Shown: positions 15,467 to 31,715 of the stretch, one piece after another
How positions within the stretch are numbered: position 1 is the first letter of the stretch
How the letters are laid out: the number at the start of each line of letters is the position of its first letter
DNA from: Oxynema aestuarii AP17
Lineage (GTDB): Bacteria; Cyanobacteriota; Cyanobacteriia; Cyanobacteriales; Laspinemataceae
Direction: 5' to 3'
Length of the DNA: 64,000 nucleotides
Assembly (NCBI RefSeq): GCF_012295525.1
Contig: NZ_CP051167.1
Location: forward strand, 434,001-498,000
Notes under the pieces: generated by a model
Database searches by the model: none
Told to the model about the DNA's origin: nothing
Seen by the model: only the letters and a program-made list of their open reading frames with translations
Position numbers and translations under genes: made by a program

Positions 15467-16309
15467 TCAAGCAAAGGTTCTTCTGAGAAGGGGCTGAATG
15501 CTGGCGAGCAATACCGTCGCGAACGCCGCCAACACGAGCAAGGCACCCCCAAAACTGACATCCCCCCAGGGCGCGTGCATGACCACACTGCCCAAATTCC
15601 AATCGGGATGCAAGTACAAATATCGAATCGGCTCGATCGCGTAACTCAACGGATTGAGCGTTGCCACAACCTGCAACCATTTTGGCATAAAAGATAAGGG
15701 AGCTAGCGCCGTACTTGCAAACAATAACGGCAAATTCGTCACGAAAATCACCGCGATCAATTCCACGTGACCCGGTAGCGCAAACGCCAGCCCCAAACTC
15801 AATCCGGTTACCCCGAGAACGAGTAAGAAAATAATCACGGCGATCGCCGCTAATCCCAGTCCTCCCGGCAATCCAGCCCCCATCAGCGCCCCGGCGGTCA
15901 AAATAATTCCCGTTTGCAGAAAACTGAGAACGACAATGTAAACCGCCGACGCTACCACGATCGAAAAGCGCGTCGATAAGGGGGCGACTAAAAATCGATT
16001 GAGAAAGCCGAATTCGCGATCGAACATCACGGGTAACCCGGCGTTGAGCGCCCCGGCAAATGCCGTAAATACGATCACCCCAGCCCCTAAAAATTGCAGG
16101 TAATTTAAACTTTCTCCAAATAACCCTTTCGGTGCATTTTGAAACAACGCCCCGAACAAAATTAACCACATCAACGGTTGAATAATTCCAGCAATTAATG
16201 TGGAAGGACGGCGCTGTAATTGGACAAATAACCGTTTCGTCAATGCCGTCGTTTCTTGCAAGAATTCGGCGATCGCATTTCCAGTTTCTGGCACGGGCTG
16301 AGTCGTCAT
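15467..16309 (-). CDS. ABC-2 type transporter permease
   Basis: Membrane subunit of an ABC exporter of the DrrB/ABC-2 family, about 280 aa with six transmembrane helices. The family segment IIQPLMWLILFGALFQ lies near the N-terminus and GLSLGLAFALPGHVELIAVI in the middle. A tail NPLSYAIEPIRYLYLHPDW is typical of cyanobacterial members. The start at 16309 (MTTQPVPETGN) has AAAGGGAAAAG just upstream; the frame is open to an ATG at 16387. The ATPase gene is immediately upstream on the same strand, so the two form one transporter. The substrate is unknown; homologues export drugs or lipids. Confidence 0.88.
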   Translation of the reverse strand: MTTQPVPETGNAIAEFLQETTALTKRLFVQLQRRPSTLIAGIIQPLMWLILFGALFQNAPKGLFGESLNYLQFLGAGVIVFTAFAGALNAGLPVMFDREFGFLNRFLVAPLSTRFSIVVASAVYIVVLSFLQTGIILTAGALMGAGLPGGLGLAAIAVIIFLLVLGVTGLSLGLAFALPGHVELIAVIFVTNLPLLFASTALAPLSFMPKWLQVVATLNPLSYAIEPIRYLYLHPDWNLGSVVMHAPWGDVSFGGALLVLAAFATVLLASIQPLLRRTFA

Positions 16310-16419
16310 TTTCTTTTCCCTTTCTGGAGAATCGATAGTTTGGCTCATCTTAATTTTAATAAATCGGTTGACGCGGGGAGTGACCATGGGGAAATGAGAA
16401 CAGGGAACACAGGAGTCAG

Positions 16420-21781: not shown

Positions 21782-21947
21782 TCTTGGCGCCAATTCTTGA
21801 GAAAGTGGAGAATACGCGGACAGGCGATCGGGTCGGCCTAACATTCTAGTAGTAGCATACCAATCGGCGATCGCCTCCCCTCTCTCCCCCCACGTAACAA
21901 GTTTGTTAGGATTTGGATCGAGTTTCAAAAAGGAAAATTACGCATCT

Positions 21948-22388
21948 ATGTCTTTATCAGTCGGAACCACCGCACCGGATTTCACCGCCAAAGACACCAA
22001 CGGTAACACGGTCAACCTCACTGACTTCAAGGGCAAAACCTTGATTTTGTACTTCTACCCCAAAGACGACACCCCCGGTTGCACGAAAGAAGCCCAAAGC
22101 TTCCGCGATGCGTACAACGAATATCAAAGCAAAGACATCGCAGTTCTCGGCGTCAGCATGGATGACGAAGAATCCCACAAAAAATTTACCGAGAAATATA
22201 ATATTCCCTTCCCCTTACTCGCCGACAGCGACGGTACCCTAACCAAAGCTTACGACGTCGAAGGCGGCGGCTACGCCAAACGGGTCACCTACGTCATCGA
22301 TGGCGACGGCAAAATCACCCAAGTCTACGAAGGATCTAACCTCAAAACCGACACCCACGCCGCCGACATCCTCGCCGCAATGGCCTAA
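21948..22388 (+). CDS. Peroxiredoxin, PrxQ/BCP family
   Basis: A thiol peroxidase that reduces H2O2 and organic hydroperoxides. The 146-aa product has the peroxidatic Cys45 in PKDDTPGCTKEAQSFRD and the family fold segments FYPKDDTPG and VLGVSMDDEESHKKF. Cys45 is the only Cys in the protein, so the usual resolving Cys five residues later is replaced by Gln. It must work as a 1-Cys enzyme or use an external thiol. The ATG at 21948 follows AAGGAAA; a longer frame from 21903 adds no conserved sequence. Divergent from the winged-helix/cobQ pair. Confidence 0.92.
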   Translation: MSLSVGTTAPDFTAKDTNGNTVNLTDFKGKTLILYFYPKDDTPGCTKEAQSFRDAYNEYQSKDIAVLGVSMDDEESHKKFTEKYNIPFPLLADSDGTLTKAYDVEGGGYAKRVTYVIDGDGKITQVYEGSNLKTDTHAADILAAMA

Positions 22389-22449: not shown

Positions 22450-22849
22450 TCATTTTGAGCGCAAGCGCTTGCGATCGATAGCGATCGCAAAGCAAGGGCG
22501 GCCCGTCTTTTCATCTGTCCCTATTTTGTTCCAGTGTGTTTTAACAAAAGCTTCATTAAATATGACAGCAGAAAGATAGTCTATTGACTTGAGTCACTTT
22601 TGCGAGTCTATTTTAACTTCTATCTTTTCACTCTAATCTTATTATTCTCACTTGTAAGCCCGCTCTCGCAAAGACGGTGCCACGATCGCCCCACCGAAAC
22701 GATAAAATTGGGAGACTAAAGCCCGATCGCCCGTCCCTGACTTCTCAAAAAATTGAAAATCTAAACTCTAAAATGGGATCGATTCACCCCGATTTTCCGA
22801 GCTGACGATCGCAGCATCTATTCCATCCCTCGTCAAAGGAGCAGTATTC
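22450..22849. other. Gene-free region upstream of the C39-like peptidase
   Basis: A 400-bp region without a convincing coding frame. It contains HIP1 octamers near 22470-22490, an AT-rich section (22540-22660) where a promoter could lie, a short STRR-like tract near 22750 and the ribosome site AAAGGAGC just before the GTG start at 22850. Confidence 0.5.
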
Positions 22850-25522
22850 GTGTCCAGCATCCTGACTTATCTCGAACCCAAAGAAGTCTTACTCAGAACC
22901 GCCACCGTTCTCAAAGGAACCTTCGACCCGGCAAAAGTTGCCACGGTGTCCGTCGTCGCCGAAGATAAATATCCCCTCAGCGTCGAACTCAACCGAGCTG
23001 AGGGTCGCTGGCAGGTCGATTTACCTAACGGTTTGACCGCGCCGGGGATTCGCTGGTTGCGCCTTAAGGCGATGGATAGTAGCGGTCGCGAACTCGACAA
23101 CCAACAAGCCTACATCACCGTCAGCGAACAACCGATGACGGTGGCGGACTCTCTCTCTTTAGAAGTGCTGCACGATACCTTTTTTAAAGCGACTCCGGCG
23201 CCTTCGACGACCTTGAGCGATCGCCACAAAGCCCAAATCCCCAAAGGTCGCTCCTTCGGGGTCAGTCGCTATACCGTGGAAGGCGATCGTGTCAAAATCG
23301 AACTCAACACCGATGTCGAACCCCTCGGACGGTTTGGATACTTCTACAAACCTCACGTTCAACTGGTCAAAGCCGAACAAACCCAGCGCGTTACCGTCGA
23401 TAACGTTCCCGACCCCCCGCCGGGATTCTGTCAGTTGTGGGTCGCCCAAACCACTAAAATTAAAACCAAACCGGAAGATTCGATCCAACTGAGCGCCCAC
23501 CAACAAGCCGAACTCCTCCAAGGACAAACCTTTTTAACCTTCGGTCATACCTCCTTCGCCAACCACTTTCGCATCATGTTGCGCGACCCGATCCCGGGAT
23601 TCGGACAAATTGGCTACGTCTATAAAGATCACGTCAAACTCAAAAAAGACGGAGAATGGATCGAATACAATCCCAACGCCACGAATTTAAGCATTCTCAA
23701 AACCACGGTGATTAAAAAACGCCCCGTGGATTCGAGTACCTTAAGTGCGGCAGATCGATACACTCTTCCCATCGGTTCGGTGTATGGGGTCGTCGCATAT
23801 TCCTCGGAAGCGGGCCATCTGAAAGTATCGCTGAGTGAAAATTTACCCGGTTTCGGCAATACGGGCTATCTTTATGCCGATTTCGTGCGCTTGTTACGCG
23901 GCGAAACGCCCCTATCGGCGGTGAGCGATCGCACTCCCTCCCCGGAAGACCCGTTGACCTATACCGGACCGAAAGAAGTTCTAGTCAAACAAGCGGTTAC
24001 CTTAACCGGAAACTTCGACCCGCAAAGCATTAGTGCGATCGCCGTCGTCGCCGAAGACAAATATCCCCTCAAAGTCGAACTCGATCGCGACGCCGGAACT
24101 TGGCGCGTCGTACTCAGCAATGGCTTTAACACCGCCGGACTGCGCTGGTTGCGCTTGCGCGGCGCCGACAGCAATAACCAACTCGTTTCCTCGGAAATCA
24201 TCTACATCACCGTCAGTACCCAAGCGACCACCGTCGGCGAACCCCTACGCTTGCGCGTCGAACAAAATACTTGGTTTAAAGTCGCCCCCCTCGATTCCCA
24301 ACAACTGGCGGACGAACAAAAAGTAATGGTCAAAGGGGGCACCACCTTTAGCGTCAGTCGATACGGACTGGTAGACGGACACCTGAAAGTCAACCTCGAT
24401 CCCGCCGTCAATCCCGTGGGGTCGTTCGGTTACTTTTACGAAGGTCATGTCGAACTGACCAAAGGGGAAAAAGTCCTGCGCTTCGACATCGAGGACGTTC
24501 CGGATACCAACTTGACGGCGAAAATGTTGGTCACCCGAACCACTTTTATTAAAGCCCGTCCGGTGGATTCGTCGATGCTCAATGCCAGTCAAAAAGCCGA
24601 TTTAAAATTAGGAACGACTTACGGAATTACCGGATATGCCTGTACCGAAGGGCATTTTCGCGTCACTCTGACCAACTCGATTCCCGGTTTTGGCAATGTC
24701 GGTTATATTTACTGGCAACACGTCCAAATTAAGAAGAATAACGATGTCATTCCCTACGAACCGGACGCGCTGACGATTACGATTCGCGAGACGACGGCGT
24801 TTAAAAAGCGCCCGATTTCGGCGGCGAACCTCGGTCCGACGGAGAAAACTACCCTCAATCTGGGGCGAGTTTACGGGGTGGCGAGTTACGCGATCGAAGA
24901 CAATCACCTCAAGGTCTCGCTGACGGAAGAGTTTCCTCAATTCGGCAATACGGGATATATTTATCCGCCTCACGTGTTGATGCGTCGCGGGAGTCGGGCG
25001 TTCGATCCGCTTCCGGATCGGATCGAGCTCAACGTCCCTTATTTCTCCCAACGGGATAACCCGCGTTACTATTGGTCTACTTGTAATGTAACCTCGATCG
25101 CCATGGTGTTTTATTACTACGGCGTGCGATCGAAGTGGGGCGGACAGCTTGAAGACGAGTTGCTCCAGTGGTGTTTCAACTATGCCGGAGAAGGCTCGCA
25201 AACCAATCACAGCGTGCTTTCGGCGCTGATTCGCGCTTACGGCTTCAAGCATCAATTCGTGACGACGGCGCGCTGGTCCGACGTCAAAAACGAGCTGATT
25301 AACCGCCGTCCGGTGGTGATTGCCGGATACTTTACGGCGACGGGACATATTCTCACGATTATCGGTTTTAACAGTCGGGGGTACATCGTACAAGATCCCT
25401 GGGGCGATGCCCTGACGGGATATAGTTATACGGAAGGGCGGAAGTTACTTTATCCCTACGGATACATGGATGAGGTGTGCGGTCCCGAGGGGAATATTTG
25501 GATTCATACGATCGCCCAATAA
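22850..25522 (+). CDS. Repeat-built protein with C-terminal C39-like cysteine peptidase domain
   Basis: An 890-aa protein starting at GTG behind AAAGGAGC, with no signal peptide. Two module types alternate. Module A (about 8-95 and 368-455) contains VVAEDKYPL and RWLRL. Module B (about 75 residues, starting near 101, 193, 278, 466, 555 and 640) contains TxxKxxPxDSxxL and GFGxxGYxYxxHV. The order is A-B-B-B-A-B-B-B, so a block of about 362 residues has been duplicated in tandem. The final part (about 726-890) is a papain-like C39-family domain with Cys745 (STCNVTS), His833 (ATGHIL) and Asp849 (VQDPWGD) as the likely triad. Modules B look like small beta barrels of SH3 type. The natural substrate is unknown. 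Confidence 0.85.
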   Translation: MSSILTYLEPKEVLLRTATVLKGTFDPAKVATVSVVAEDKYPLSVELNRAEGRWQVDLPNGLTAPGIRWLRLKAMDSSGRELDNQQAYITVSEQPMTVADSLSLEVLHDTFFKATPAPSTTLSDRHKAQIPKGRSFGVSRYTVEGDRVKIELNTDVEPLGRFGYFYKPHVQLVKAEQTQRVTVDNVPDPPPGFCQLWVAQTTKIKTKPEDSIQLSAHQQAELLQGQTFLTFGHTSFANHFRIMLRDPIPGFGQIGYVYKDHVKLKKDGEWIEYNPNATNLSILKTTVIKKRPVDSSTLSAADRYTLPIGSVYGVVAYSSEAGHLKVSLSENLPGFGNTGYLYADFVRLLRGETPLSAVSDRTPSPEDPLTYTGPKEVLVKQAVTLTGNFDPQSISAIAVVAEDKYPLKVELDRDAGTWRVVLSNGFNTAGLRWLRLRGADSNNQLVSSEIIYITVSTQATTVGEPLRLRVEQNTWFKVAPLDSQQLADEQKVMVKGGTTFSVSRYGLVDGHLKVNLDPAVNPVGSFGYFYEGHVELTKGEKVLRFDIEDVPDTNLTAKMLVTRTTFIKARPVDSSMLNASQKADLKLGTTYGITGYACTEGHFRVTLTNSIPGFGNVGYIYWQHVQIKKNNDVIPYEPDALTITIRETTAFKKRPISAANLGPTEKTTLNLGRVYGVASYAIEDNHLKVSLTEEFPQFGNTGYIYPPHVLMRRGSRAFDPLPDRIELNVPYFSQRDNPRYYWSTCNVTSIAMVFYYYGVRSKWGGQLEDELLQWCFNYAGEGSQTNHSVLSALIRAYGFKHQFVTTARWSDVKNELINRRPVVIAGYFTATGHILTIIGFNSRGYIVQDPWGDALTGYSYTEGRKLLYPYGYMDEVCGPEGNIWIHTIAQ

Positions 25523-25666: not shown

Positions 25667-26746
25667 ATGATGGCTAAAAAACAGAAAAAGCAGAAAAAAG
25701 AAACAGGCGATCGCGATCGCCCCGTCGCGGAAACTAACCTGGCGTCTACCTCTCCAGACGCCCGCTTCCAGTTTCTACAAGAACGACAAAAAAAGATATT
25801 GACCTTAATTAAGCGAAAGCGAACGGAACTGTCAAACTTAACCGAACAGATGCAAGAGATTGCGCGATCGATGCTCTATCACGGTCAACCCATTTACGAA
25901 CAAGCACAACAGCTCGATCGCGAAATTCACGAATTATTTCACGATATTTTTACCAAGCGCAAATTTGCTAAAAAAACCAAACTCGAAATTCGAGAAGTTT
26001 ACGAAATACTCCAATTTACAGGTCGTATCAGTCCCCATTTCGACGAAGAAGACGAAGACTTCGCCCGGGAGGAAGAAGCCGAAGCCGAACGGGAACATCC
26101 GAATGAGGAAAATGACGACAGTTTCGACGACGAAGATGGTTCGGAATGGGGCAGTCATTCCCTATTTGAAGAAAACCATGCCCCTCGTCCTTCGCGGGAT
26201 ATGAGAAAACTGTTTCTAAAATTGGCCGATCGCTTTCACCCGGATAAAATTGCCGATCCGGAAAAAAGAGAGCATTATACCGAAATCATGAAAGAGGTTA
26301 ATATTGCTTATAAAAGTGGCGATTTTGCCCGCTTGTTGGAAATTGAACAACAAAGCGAATACGAGCAAAAAATTGAAACTTCACAAAACGATCGCGATCG
26401 CCAGTGCAAGCAACTCGAACACGATCTAAAAATTCTCGAACGGCAATACGAACAATTAAAAGACCAAGTTCGCGAAACCCGCAACACCCCTCAAGGGATG
26501 ATGGTCAAAGAATATCGCAAAGCCAAACGAGAAGGCATGGATTTAGTGGAAGCCTCCCTCGAACAATTTAAAGCCGAACTCGAATCCCTCGAACAGATTC
26601 GCGATTTCGTTAAAGATTTTCGCGATCGAAAGATAACGCTGAAGGAATTTTTATGCGGTCCGTCCCGTCGCCAACCCTTGGATTTGGACAATATCGAAGA
26701 TGTCATCGACGAACTGGCAAAAAATGGGATTCACATCCATTTTTAA
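25667..26746 (+). CDS. J-domain protein with flanking coiled coils
   Basis: A 359-aa soluble protein. Residues about 1-25 are Lys-rich and polar. A coiled coil (about 35-115) precedes a very acidic linker (about 125-160). A J domain follows (about 180-235) with HPD in LADRFHPDKIADPEKREHYT and helix IMKEVNIAYKSGDF. A second long coiled coil ends the protein. The HPD motif is needed to stimulate Hsp70, so it is probably a specialised DnaK co-chaperone. There is no Gly/Phe or zinc region, so it is not DnaJ itself. Either of the two adjacent Met codons may start it. Confidence 0.8.
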   Translation: MMAKKQKKQKKETGDRDRPVAETNLASTSPDARFQFLQERQKKILTLIKRKRTELSNLTEQMQEIARSMLYHGQPIYEQAQQLDREIHELFHDIFTKRKFAKKTKLEIREVYEILQFTGRISPHFDEEDEDFAREEEAEAEREHPNEENDDSFDDEDGSEWGSHSLFEENHAPRPSRDMRKLFLKLADRFHPDKIADPEKREHYTEIMKEVNIAYKSGDFARLLEIEQQSEYEQKIETSQNDRDRQCKQLEHDLKILERQYEQLKDQVRETRNTPQGMMVKEYRKAKREGMDLVEASLEQFKAELESLEQIRDFVKDFRDRKITLKEFLCGPSRRQPLDLDNIEDVIDELAKNGIHIHF

Positions 26747-30269: not shown

Positions 30270-31715
30270 TCCCGACGCTGACCTATGCGCTTCGCGCAGG
30301 CTTCGCCAACGGTACAGCGCGGGCTTCACCGGATCGCTCCAGCGACTACCTGCTTCGTTCGGTCTTGTCTAGGCAATGCCTCCGACCGAACCCGTCCACA
30401 GGCGATTTCATCAGCCGTGAGACCCACGACTGAGAGGCCACGATTGCGAATAACTTGAGCGCTGGCAACATCTCTGGGCTTGATGGAACCGCATTCACTG
30501 CAATGGTGAATACGGTCTTTTAATTCCTTGCGGACTTGAGCCCCACACTCAGGGCATTCCTGGCTGGTGCCTCTAGGATTGACCTTGCTGTAGTAGACAC
30601 CACGCTTCCAGCACACCCACGGCAGCACAATGTTGACGAACTGACCCAAGCCAGCATCAATCATCTGTTTGCCGAGGAAGCCCTTAGCGAGTGTCCTGAA
30701 GTCCAAGTCTTCAACAAATATTATCCCGGCTCGATCGCAGAGATGATGAGCCAGCTTAAACTGCCAGTCCAGACGGTAATTCGCAATATTTTCGTGAACT
30801 CTACCGATCCGCTCGATTAACTTGAGCCAGTTTTTCGACCCCTTCTGCTTCCCTTTTAGCCTACGTTGCAGCGATTTCAGCTTGCGGTGCAGCTTATTGA
30901 AGAAACGAGGACGAGAAACCTGCTCGCCATCAGAGGTGGATAGAAAATACTCCAGACCCACATCCAGCCCCAGGGCATGACCTTCTGGCGGGATGTCGGG
31001 TATATCAACGTTGGCTTTTAGAATCAGCATGACGTACCAGCCTGAATGCTTCCGCACGACCCGAACGGCTTTCAGATCGAAGCCCTCTGGGATGGGGCGA
31101 TGCAAGTTGATAGGCACCTGGCCGATCTTTGGCAGCTTAATGCTGTTGCCATCAATCGCCTCGCCCTTCATCTGCGGAAACAGAAATGACCGCATCCGAC
31201 CAAATTTCTTGAACCGAGGAAACCCAGTTCGCTTTTGGTGGAAGGCGACGAAAGCAGCATCAACCCTCCCCATGACATCCTGAAGCACCTGAGAATGAAC
31301 TGCCTTGAGTTCGGGGTTCGTTTTCTTGGCTTCAGTTAATGCCTTTTTCTGGTGGTAGTAATCGGGATATGGGGCGTTAGCTGGGATGATGTACTCCTTC
31401 TGGAGAGTGCAAGCATTGACCGAGCACTTCCGACTGTCGATCCAGTCCTTGCGCTCTCCGACCGCATAGTTGTAGACCTGGCGGCAAGTCTCCAGCCAAT
31501 TCAGCATCTGGAGTTCTTGTTCGAGATCTGGGTAAATCCGGTATGAGTAGGTCAATACAAGCATGTAGTTATTATAACTTAGGAGAAACAGCAATGTTCC
31601 CTAGAAAATCGCGAAAGAGTATGGCGACTCCGTTCCACTCCATCGCCTCGGCTTTCATCCCGATACTCACGCTTCGCGTAGAGTGCGGGGCTTCCCGCCG
31701 ATTAAGCTAAAGTCT
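30270..31715 (-). mobile_element. IS200/IS605-type element with tnpB only
   Basis: A single-gene element on the minus strand. Boundaries are approximate. The tnpB-distal (right) end holds the hairpin TGCGC-TTC-GCGCA within 30282-30300. The left end holds the imperfect palindrome ACTCACGCTTCGCGTAGAGT at 31665-31684, plus a GGCGGGAAGCCCCGC hairpin just outside it. Subterminal hairpins instead of terminal inverted repeats are typical of this family, which moves as single-stranded DNA through a Y1 transposase. No tnpA is present, so it would need one in trans. The DNA after tnpB (30251-30330) is where the guide RNA (omega RNA) of such elements is normally encoded. Confidence 0.7.
30326..31564 (-). 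CDS. tnpB: RNA-guided endonuclease TnpB of an IS200/IS605-type element
   Basis: A 412-aa TnpB/OrfB, ancestor-type relative of Cas12 that cuts DNA under guide RNA control and helps the transposon persist. An N-terminal OrfB helix-turn-helix region (YSYRIYPDLEQELQMLNWLETCRQVYNYA) leads into the RuvC fold. The catalytic set is complete: Asp201 in LGLDVGLEYF, Glu285 in FVEDLDF and Asp365 in KPRDVAS. The four-Cys zinc finger is intact (SQECPECG and HHCSECG). The start at 31564 (MLVLTYSYRI) fits the family better than the 31594 start. It looks functional. Confidence 0.92.
   Translation of the reverse strand: MLVLTYSYRIYPDLEQELQMLNWLETCRQVYNYAVGERKDWIDSRKCSVNACTLQKEYIIPANAPYPDYYHQKKALTEAKKTNPELKAVHSQVLQDVMGRVDAAFVAFHQKRTGFPRFKKFGRMRSFLFPQMKGEAIDGNSIKLPKIGQVPINLHRPIPEGFDLKAVRVVRKHSGWYVMLILKANVDIPDIPPEGHALGLDVGLEYFLSTSDGEQVSRPRFFNKLHRKLKSLQRRLKGKQKGSKNWLKLIERIGRVHENIANYRLDWQFKLAHHLCDRAGIIFVEDLDFRTLAKGFLGKQMIDAGLGQFVNIVLPWVCWKRGVYYSKVNPRGTSQECPECGAQVRKELKDRIHHCSECGSIKPRDVASAQVIRNRGLSVVGLTADEIACGRVRSEALPRQDRTKQVVAGAIR

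Follow-up and report, generated by a model that had tools for sequence, protein, structure and literature searches.

A leaderless A-BBB-A-BBB-C39 protein of Oxynema aestuarii, conserved beside a PrxQ-type peroxiredoxin, is a candidate cell-wall peptidase

PeiR is a viral wall peptidase in which N-terminal wall-binding repeats precede a C-terminal C39 domain, as set out in the available excerpt of its description (PMC6189367). A C39-like domain, N5, is also part of the modular Lysin A of mycobacteriophages, where, according to the accessible portion of that study (PMC3314691), its activity is likewise predicted. The protein considered here is encoded in a window of 64,000 nucleotides of Oxynema aestuarii AP17 (G000:C1:434001-498000, part of a 6.36-Mb single-contig genome), by an open reading frame (ORF) with a GTG start at 22850..25522 on the forward strand. 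Its 890 residues comprise two modules named A and six named B, in the order A-BBB-A-BBB, followed by a C39-like peptidase domain. With PeiR and the pseudomurein endoisopeptidases it has in common N-terminal repeats of predicted wall-binding function, a C-terminal C39-like peptidase and a similar catalytic fold. PeiR, however, acts on archaeal pseudomurein and carries pseudomurein-binding repeats (PMBR), whereas the Oxynema protein has SH3b-like and immunoglobulin (Ig)-like modules in a doubled block and is encoded on a bacterial chromosome, beside a peroxiredoxin gene. Pfam includes a PMBR model, and PMBR is absent from the Pfam matches of the protein. The C39 endolysins of viruses and cyanophages (viral contigs L155/L156, phage S-B68, PHROG 10051) resemble it in the B-C39 pairing seen in L155/L156, but they are viral genes with a second, lysozyme or GH19-like, catalytic domain, while the Oxynema protein is a peptidase only and no phage gene was recognised alongside. 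Lysin A differs in the N-terminal position of N5 and in its other partner domains.

Cell-wall cutting is the likeliest function of this protein, judging from its resemblance to wall peptidases in sequence and predicted structure. Specifically, we consider it moderately probable that it is a cysteine endopeptidase that cleaves peptidoglycan, bears a wall-binding array of the SH3b type and lacks a recognisable signal peptide. The proposed model is that the six SH3b-like B modules, spaced by the two Ig-like A modules, would anchor the enzyme on the wall, and that the C-terminal domain would cleave peptide bonds of the peptidoglycan by means of a triad of Cys, His and Asp, with a Gln serving the oxyanion hole; peptidoglycan would thus be both ligand and substrate. 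Made, like endolysins, without a recognisable signal peptide, the enzyme would be stored in the cytosol, and it would reach its substrate only after a breach of the inner membrane or by an export route not found in this analysis.

The peptidase domain occupies residues 722-890 (25013..25519, forward strand) and is predicted to adopt a papain fold. It matches the Pfam family Peptidase_C39_2 (PF13529) over residues 727-851, with 60.9 bits against a cut-off of 24. The first-pass annotation, made from the letters alone, had rightly pointed to Cys745, His833 and Asp849 as a triad, to which Gln734 can be added: the four residues are invariant in 25 aligned orthologues. They are kept in 57 of the 58 distinct C39 sequences found on proteins with at least three B modules, the exception being L124. 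Across every kind of C39 sequence the count is 74 of 76, a phage ORF in L098 being the second exception. The L124 protein (196-2298) has Gly in the column of the catalytic Cys and is perhaps an inactive binder. The domain also matches the PHROG endolysin family phrog_10051 (E 2.4e-19). When its model was compared with known structures by VIA-align, the matches included 6mpz, the C39 protease of a PCAT (Z 15.3, 2.5 Å over 132 residues), 3erv (Z 14.8, 3.0 Å over 148) and the pseudomurein endoisopeptidase PeiR, 8z4h (Z 13.8, 2.9 Å over 137).

The modules that precede the peptidase were delimited by ORF reading, profile hidden Markov models (HMMs) and orthologue alignment. HMMs built from relatives, the window protein left out, reproduce the module order first proposed, A-B-B-B-A-B-B-B. 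The A model finds residues 5-96 (116 bits) and 369-459 (130 bits), a third match at E 0.36 being spurious, and the B model finds 103-174, 195-266, 279-351, 467-539, 558-629 and 641-714, with 78 to 113 bits; neither matches any of 200 shuffled copies of the protein. All on the forward strand, the first block consists of A1 (residues 2-97, 22853..23140), B1 (102-176, 23153..23377), B2 (193-266, 23426..23647) and B3 (278-351, 23681..23902), and the second of A2 (367-460, 23948..24229), B4 (465-539, 24242..24466), B5 (556-630, 24515..24739) and B6 (641-714, 24770..24991). The length of A is corrected from 85 to about 92-96 residues, and the regular repeat that had been described holds, with equivalent motifs 363-364 rather than 362 residues apart. 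The protein has no match in NCBIfam, and sequence searches of the PDB with the whole protein, with B, with A and with the full alignment gave nothing below E 0.15.

Structure models agree with the earlier claim that A and B are separate folds. In the full-length model, computed from 25 sequences, the domains appear well modelled and their overall arrangement is not fixed (mean predicted local distance difference test, pLDDT, 83.3; predicted template modelling score, pTM, 0.40). Residues 3-93 of the A1 model superpose on an Ig domain with Z 10.6 (2.1 Å over 88 residues), and A is, as modelled, an Ig-like beta sandwich. The Pfam Big models gave nothing convincing for A, the best of them, Big_13, matching 5 of 34 members with a best E of 0.01. 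Modelled alone, B5 reaches a pLDDT of 96.8. Its best VIA-align rows, with Z 7.2 to 7.8 over 63-64 of 75 residues, include the SH3b parts of wall enzymes, the top SH3b match having Z 7.8 (2.4 Å over 64); the Foldseek rows for B5 are mostly SH3 domains, at E 0.06 and worse. In BFVD, B best matches a 'putative peptidoglycan-binding protein' from a cyanophage (E 5.4e-4, TMq 0.78, 27% identity). The models thus suggest that B is an SH3b-like barrel, for which peptidoglycan binding is predicted. These domain comparisons rest on VIA-align rows, and a family absent from its lists could also fit. Foldseek on the whole model returns mostly multi-domain Ig-like and S-layer chains. Of the first-pass proposal that the B modules are binding barrels presenting substrates, the barrel stands, and possible wall anchoring of the SH3b type takes the place of substrate presentation.

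The proposal of a wall enzyme draws on the company that B and C39 keep, because both co-occur with wall-hydrolase domains in other proteins. The partners of B in cyanobacteria are M15 peptidases (L070, L072, L125, L131-L134), an M23 peptidase (L127), GHL10 (L073), GH19 (above the cut-off in L064, below it in L071) and a phage lysozyme (L067, in which the B match is weak, at 18 bits). The C39 domain is found with PG_binding_1, GH19 (about the cut-off in the paralogue L003), Amidase_2 and phage lysozyme. The two kinds of domain meet in the viral contigs L155/L156 (3503-4804), where a single protein of the form lysozyme-B-C39, its N-terminus beginning directly in the lysozyme domain, scores as an endolysin in PHROGs. 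Of 27 candidate stretches in a scan of viral contigs, 2 were confirmed. The ORF that precedes this gene has a hydrophobic start and no family match, and is perhaps a holin or part of a spanin. In a phage collection 73 records have a match, and the 20 matches listed fall in residues 685-888; the C39 protein of Synechococcus phage S-B68 is annotated as an endolysin and has a GH19 match below the cut-off.

The lack of a recognisable signal peptide, also claimed at first pass, was borne out by a crude rule applied without a positive control set, under which no ATG, GTG or TTG start of the window locus gives a signal-like N-terminus. The highest 19-residue mean hydropathy is 1.73, in a stretch that lies mostly 5' of the start codon. 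The GTG itself is preceded at a distance of 8 nt by the Shine-Dalgarno-like sequence AAAGGAG (22835..22841, forward strand), read directly from the letters. By the same rule, of 57 family members whose start region is uncut, three have some candidate start that yields a signal-like N-terminus, two of these starts lying at the edge of A1 itself and one at an upstream GTG. Two of 30 other B proteins scored signal-like, namely L132 and L064, a SLATT fusion with membrane helices.

Several observations weigh against a wall peptidase. The Z-scores of B against SH3b domains are below 8, the level at which VIA-align warns of a merely shared arrangement; no Foldseek match of B in the PDB reaches E 0.001, and none of 30 B modules has a Pfam SH3 model among the 10 families matched (E up to 1). 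No holin, phage or lysis gene was recognised among the 10 neighbours scanned, three of which have no family match. A function is assigned to only one of the three best PHROG matches. The case is slightly weakened, too, by the phage relatives: the C39 protein of Arthronema virus TR020 ('putative cysteine protease') sits between capsid and tail genes, the relative in L098 lacks the catalytic residues as aligned, and the likely lysis gene of cyanophage S-SRP02 is an amidase and not its C39 family peptidase, as stated in the available part of the report (PMC8790148). Finally, PCAT-type C39 proteases, which cut leader peptides, fit the fold no worse than PeiR does. The first rank of 6mpz, and the place of the TR020 gene, which would suit a maturation protease, could point to a processing peptidase for leader peptides or other specific protein maturation, as known for the C39 domains of bacteriocin ABC transporters. 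We deem this highly improbable: PeiR scores within 1.5 Z units of the top row, no transporter membrane or ATPase domain is among the Pfam matches of the protein, and, among the scanned neighbours, the closest gene of an ABC transporter encodes an ABC-2 permease (15467-16387) and lies about 6.5 kb away.

The most unusual feature of the gene lies outside 22850-25522 and is a new observation: its conserved pairing with a PrxQ/BCP-type peroxiredoxin. In the window this partner is encoded upstream at 21903..22388 on the forward strand, with a provisional start; it was recognised by Pfam AhpC-TSA and by locus clustering, and its best NCBIfam model is PrxQ, below that model's cut-off. Of 39 distinct doubled loci (A-BBB-A-BBB-C39) with at least 1.2 kb of upstream sequence, 35 have a peroxiredoxin gene 5' of the peptidase gene and on its strand, L006 being excluded for its short flank and L035, L147, L148 and L149 lacking the gene; loci are counted as distinct by their C39 sequences, so that close species count separately. 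The gene is also upstream in 7 of 11 single-block loci (A-BBB-C39), a count that includes L110, with a 0.8-kb flank, because the gene was found there, and that leaves out L061, as part of a doubled copy, and three other loci with too little flank. It is found in none of three A-BBBB-C39 rows, two of which are one locus. As a control, the ORFs within 1.4 kb of the peptidase gene were clustered. The largest upstream cluster is the peroxiredoxin, in 35 of 39 doubled loci and always on the peptidase strand, against 8 of 39 for the largest downstream cluster; in the single-block loci the largest clusters cover 6 of 11 upstream and 3 of 11 downstream. A second upstream cluster, of no assigned identity, is found in 18 of the 39 doubled loci, with an orientation opposite to that of the peptidase gene. 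The Oxynema genome has five more peroxiredoxin matches elsewhere, all of them weaker.

A leaderless protein with such a neighbour could equally be a cytosolic peptidase. It might be a protein peptidase of redox homeostasis, in which PrxQ would detect or clear peroxide and gate the catalytic Cys, while A and B would bind protein partners. The absence of a recognisable signal peptide and the same-strand linkage in both doubled and single-block loci speak for such a role, and the window peroxiredoxin has a single Cys, the usual second one being absent (PGCTKEAQ), so that it might need a partner thiol. Many neighbouring peroxiredoxins, however, retain the second Cys (PGCTKEAC or KQAC), so that a partner thiol is no general need and a one-Cys peroxiredoxin is excluded as the general partner. 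With the modules accompanying wall hydrolases in the proteins scanned, and with four of 39 doubled loci lacking the neighbour, we regard the redox peptidase as unlikely. A tandem peroxiredoxin pair lies upstream of the peptidase in L007, L008, L016, L019, L020, L036 and L037; in L007, L016, L019 and L020 one copy reads EAC, with the second Cys, and the other EAQ, and in L036 and L037 both copies keep the second Cys.

The leaderless, wall-hydrolase-like architecture with its many wall-type modules would also suit a lytic weapon, freed when the producer lyses and attacking the walls of neighbours in the manner of a leaderless bacteriocin. This seems quite improbable to us: the conserved peroxiredoxin neighbour is unexpected for a weapon, and no immunity gene was recognised alongside, some neighbours having no family match. 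Delivery by a contractile injector does not seem general either, a phage-sheath match being present in 8 of 19 carriers (11 have none) and in 27 of 77 other genomes of the same sample. An injector cargo would be expected in genomes that have such a system, and carriers show no clear enrichment of sheath genes; the Oxynema genome has one sheath match. The comparison is a weak one, in which carriers were read by eye from strong rows and the sheath model can miss.

Returning to the candidate wall peptidase, its repeats have a traceable history. The tandem duplication of a 1.1-kb block, proposed at first pass, is confirmed, as the two halves align over 347 residues with 45% identity (E 6e-111), the best DNA offset is 1092 and the modules pair between blocks. 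The closest B pairs in the protein are B1-B4 (42%), B2-B5 (42%) and B3-B6 (47%), the remaining pairs having 24-39% identity, and A1 and A2 are 49% identical. The same pairs form in a tree built on the 148 B modules of 25 orthologues, with support of 0.405 for B1+B4, 0.975 for B2+B5 and 0.915 for B3+B6; the weakly supported B1+B4 pairing agrees with a mean identity of 43% between B1 and B4, against 29-30% between B1 and the other B modules. Because the modules pair in this way, sequence comparison indicates that the A-BBB block was doubled as a unit before the lineages of the 25 orthologues split. The dating from DNA that had been suggested gives an old event: in register, the two blocks agree at only about 42% of bases. 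A FastTree tree of the last block plus peptidase (n=58), in which a small number of rows are truncated copies of a single gene, separates the doubled side (40 sequences, and L061 as a fragment of a disrupted doubled copy) from 17 others with support 0.999. Both results exclude a recent duplication, and the tree fits one single doubling event common to all doubled forms. The first block has since become the more diverged, with mean identities among the orthologues of 45% for A1 and 42% for B1, against 51% for A2 and 58% for B4. A1 is missing in nine of the 25, two of which also lack most of B1, and tblastn found no A1 relics in 13 loci of such lineages, so that A1 was apparently either cleanly lost there or never acquired.

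The layout, first presented as a singular novelty, turns out to be that of a conserved cyanobacterial family, to which the window protein belongs by sequence and in which it is no singleton. At least 700 of its 890 residues are covered in 30 of 148 genomes of the order, its own included (loci L001, L018-L046); other genomes of the order have the C39 end alone or a fragmented match. Searched with the alignment at E 0.001, 40 of 292 genomes across the phylum show some match. Exact peptide patterns, which reach close relatives only, were also run against named genomes and confirmed 12 loci, in Kamptonema, Phormidium, Oscillatoria, Lyngbya, Laspinema, Planktothrix, Microcoleus and uncultured Oscillatoriales; the seven named genera are filamentous. 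The single-block form A-BBB-C39, in ORFs of 546-583 residues, occurs in other families of the class, which likewise rules out a unique layout. Variants include A-BBB-C39 proteins with a long N-terminal extension (L062/L146 of G383, L113, L118), that of L062 holding three PG_binding_1 stretches, and a doubled copy interrupted by an internal stop (L061, L082, in G038), with the peroxiredoxin still 5' of its first part. Annotated relatives of the B-C39 kind are named 'C39 family peptidase', and the accessible portions of the open-licence literature yielded no description of an A-BBB-A-BBB-C39 protein or of its PrxQ neighbour. Elsewhere in the window, a 359-residue protein at 25667-26746 has no Pfam match and contains an HPD motif like that of J domains, and an IS605 OrfB/TnpB-like gene lies at 30326-31594.

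The Oxynema genome also encodes two paralogues, C39 (L002) and C39-PG_binding-GH19 (L003), which share with the window protein a homologous C39 domain (about 41% identical) and the absence of a hydrophobic N-terminus, but have no A or B modules and adjoin a TIR-WD40 gene (L170; TIR recognised by eye in the sequence, WD40 by PDB matches), a neighbour that the window gene does not have. A homologue of the TIR part is found near C39/GH19 genes in 9 of 16 loci (L169-L172, L174-L185; some cut by contig ends), and C39 and C39-GH19 genes stand beside a TIR-WD40 homologue in L170, L171, L172, L175, L176, L178, L181 and L182. SLOG-like and SLATT genes are present in 3 of the 16 (L169, L171, L172), joined in L171 and L172 by Cache-domain genes; the SLOG-like protein matches TRPM2 channels (E 2.4e-5), and one membrane protein in the cluster has Cache-domain matches. 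Three C39 loci without GH19 (L186-L188) have neither a TIR homologue nor SLOG/SLATT. In L169 (3632-5920, the same as L064 898-3186), a 763-residue ORF joins a two-helix DUF4231/SLATT part to B, C39 and GH19, possibly a holin and an endolysin in one chain, and in L173 SLATT is fused to B. Because homologues of TIR, SLOG, SLATT, Cache and GH19 are absent from the 64-kb window and from the flanks of 28 relatives, this cluster is not the context of the window gene; by analogy, it may show possible uses of related leaderless lysins.

A joint proposal would make both groups cytosolic stores of leaderless, endolysin-like wall peptidases for programmed self-lysis of cyanobacteria, and we find it doubtful. 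In its PrxQ-linked branch, the A-BBB(-A-BBB)-C39 enzyme would be tied to oxidative stress, with peroxide held low and the catalytic Cys reduced up to the point of membrane failure, upon which the enzyme would dismantle the wall; any functional role of the peroxiredoxin is conjectural here. In the second branch, C39/GH19 lysins would be tied to TIR/SLOG/SLATT signaling, with the two-helix SLATT protein acting as a host-encoded holin.

Wall-binding repeats followed by a C-terminal C39 peptidase are of a kind already known from PeiR; what is new is the PrxQ linkage. In stressed Anabaena, ghost cells lacked a peptidoglycan wall in 88 of 88 examined, and the available part of that report names no enzyme for this loss (PMC8894136). 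The family raises this as a question only, and for those cyanobacteria that carry it. B would be an SH3b-like family without a Pfam model and a marker of diverse wall-hydrolase-like proteins in the class. If the proposed function is true, a generically named cyanobacterial protein would become a candidate enzyme of wall lysis, and one whose partner gene can be defined.

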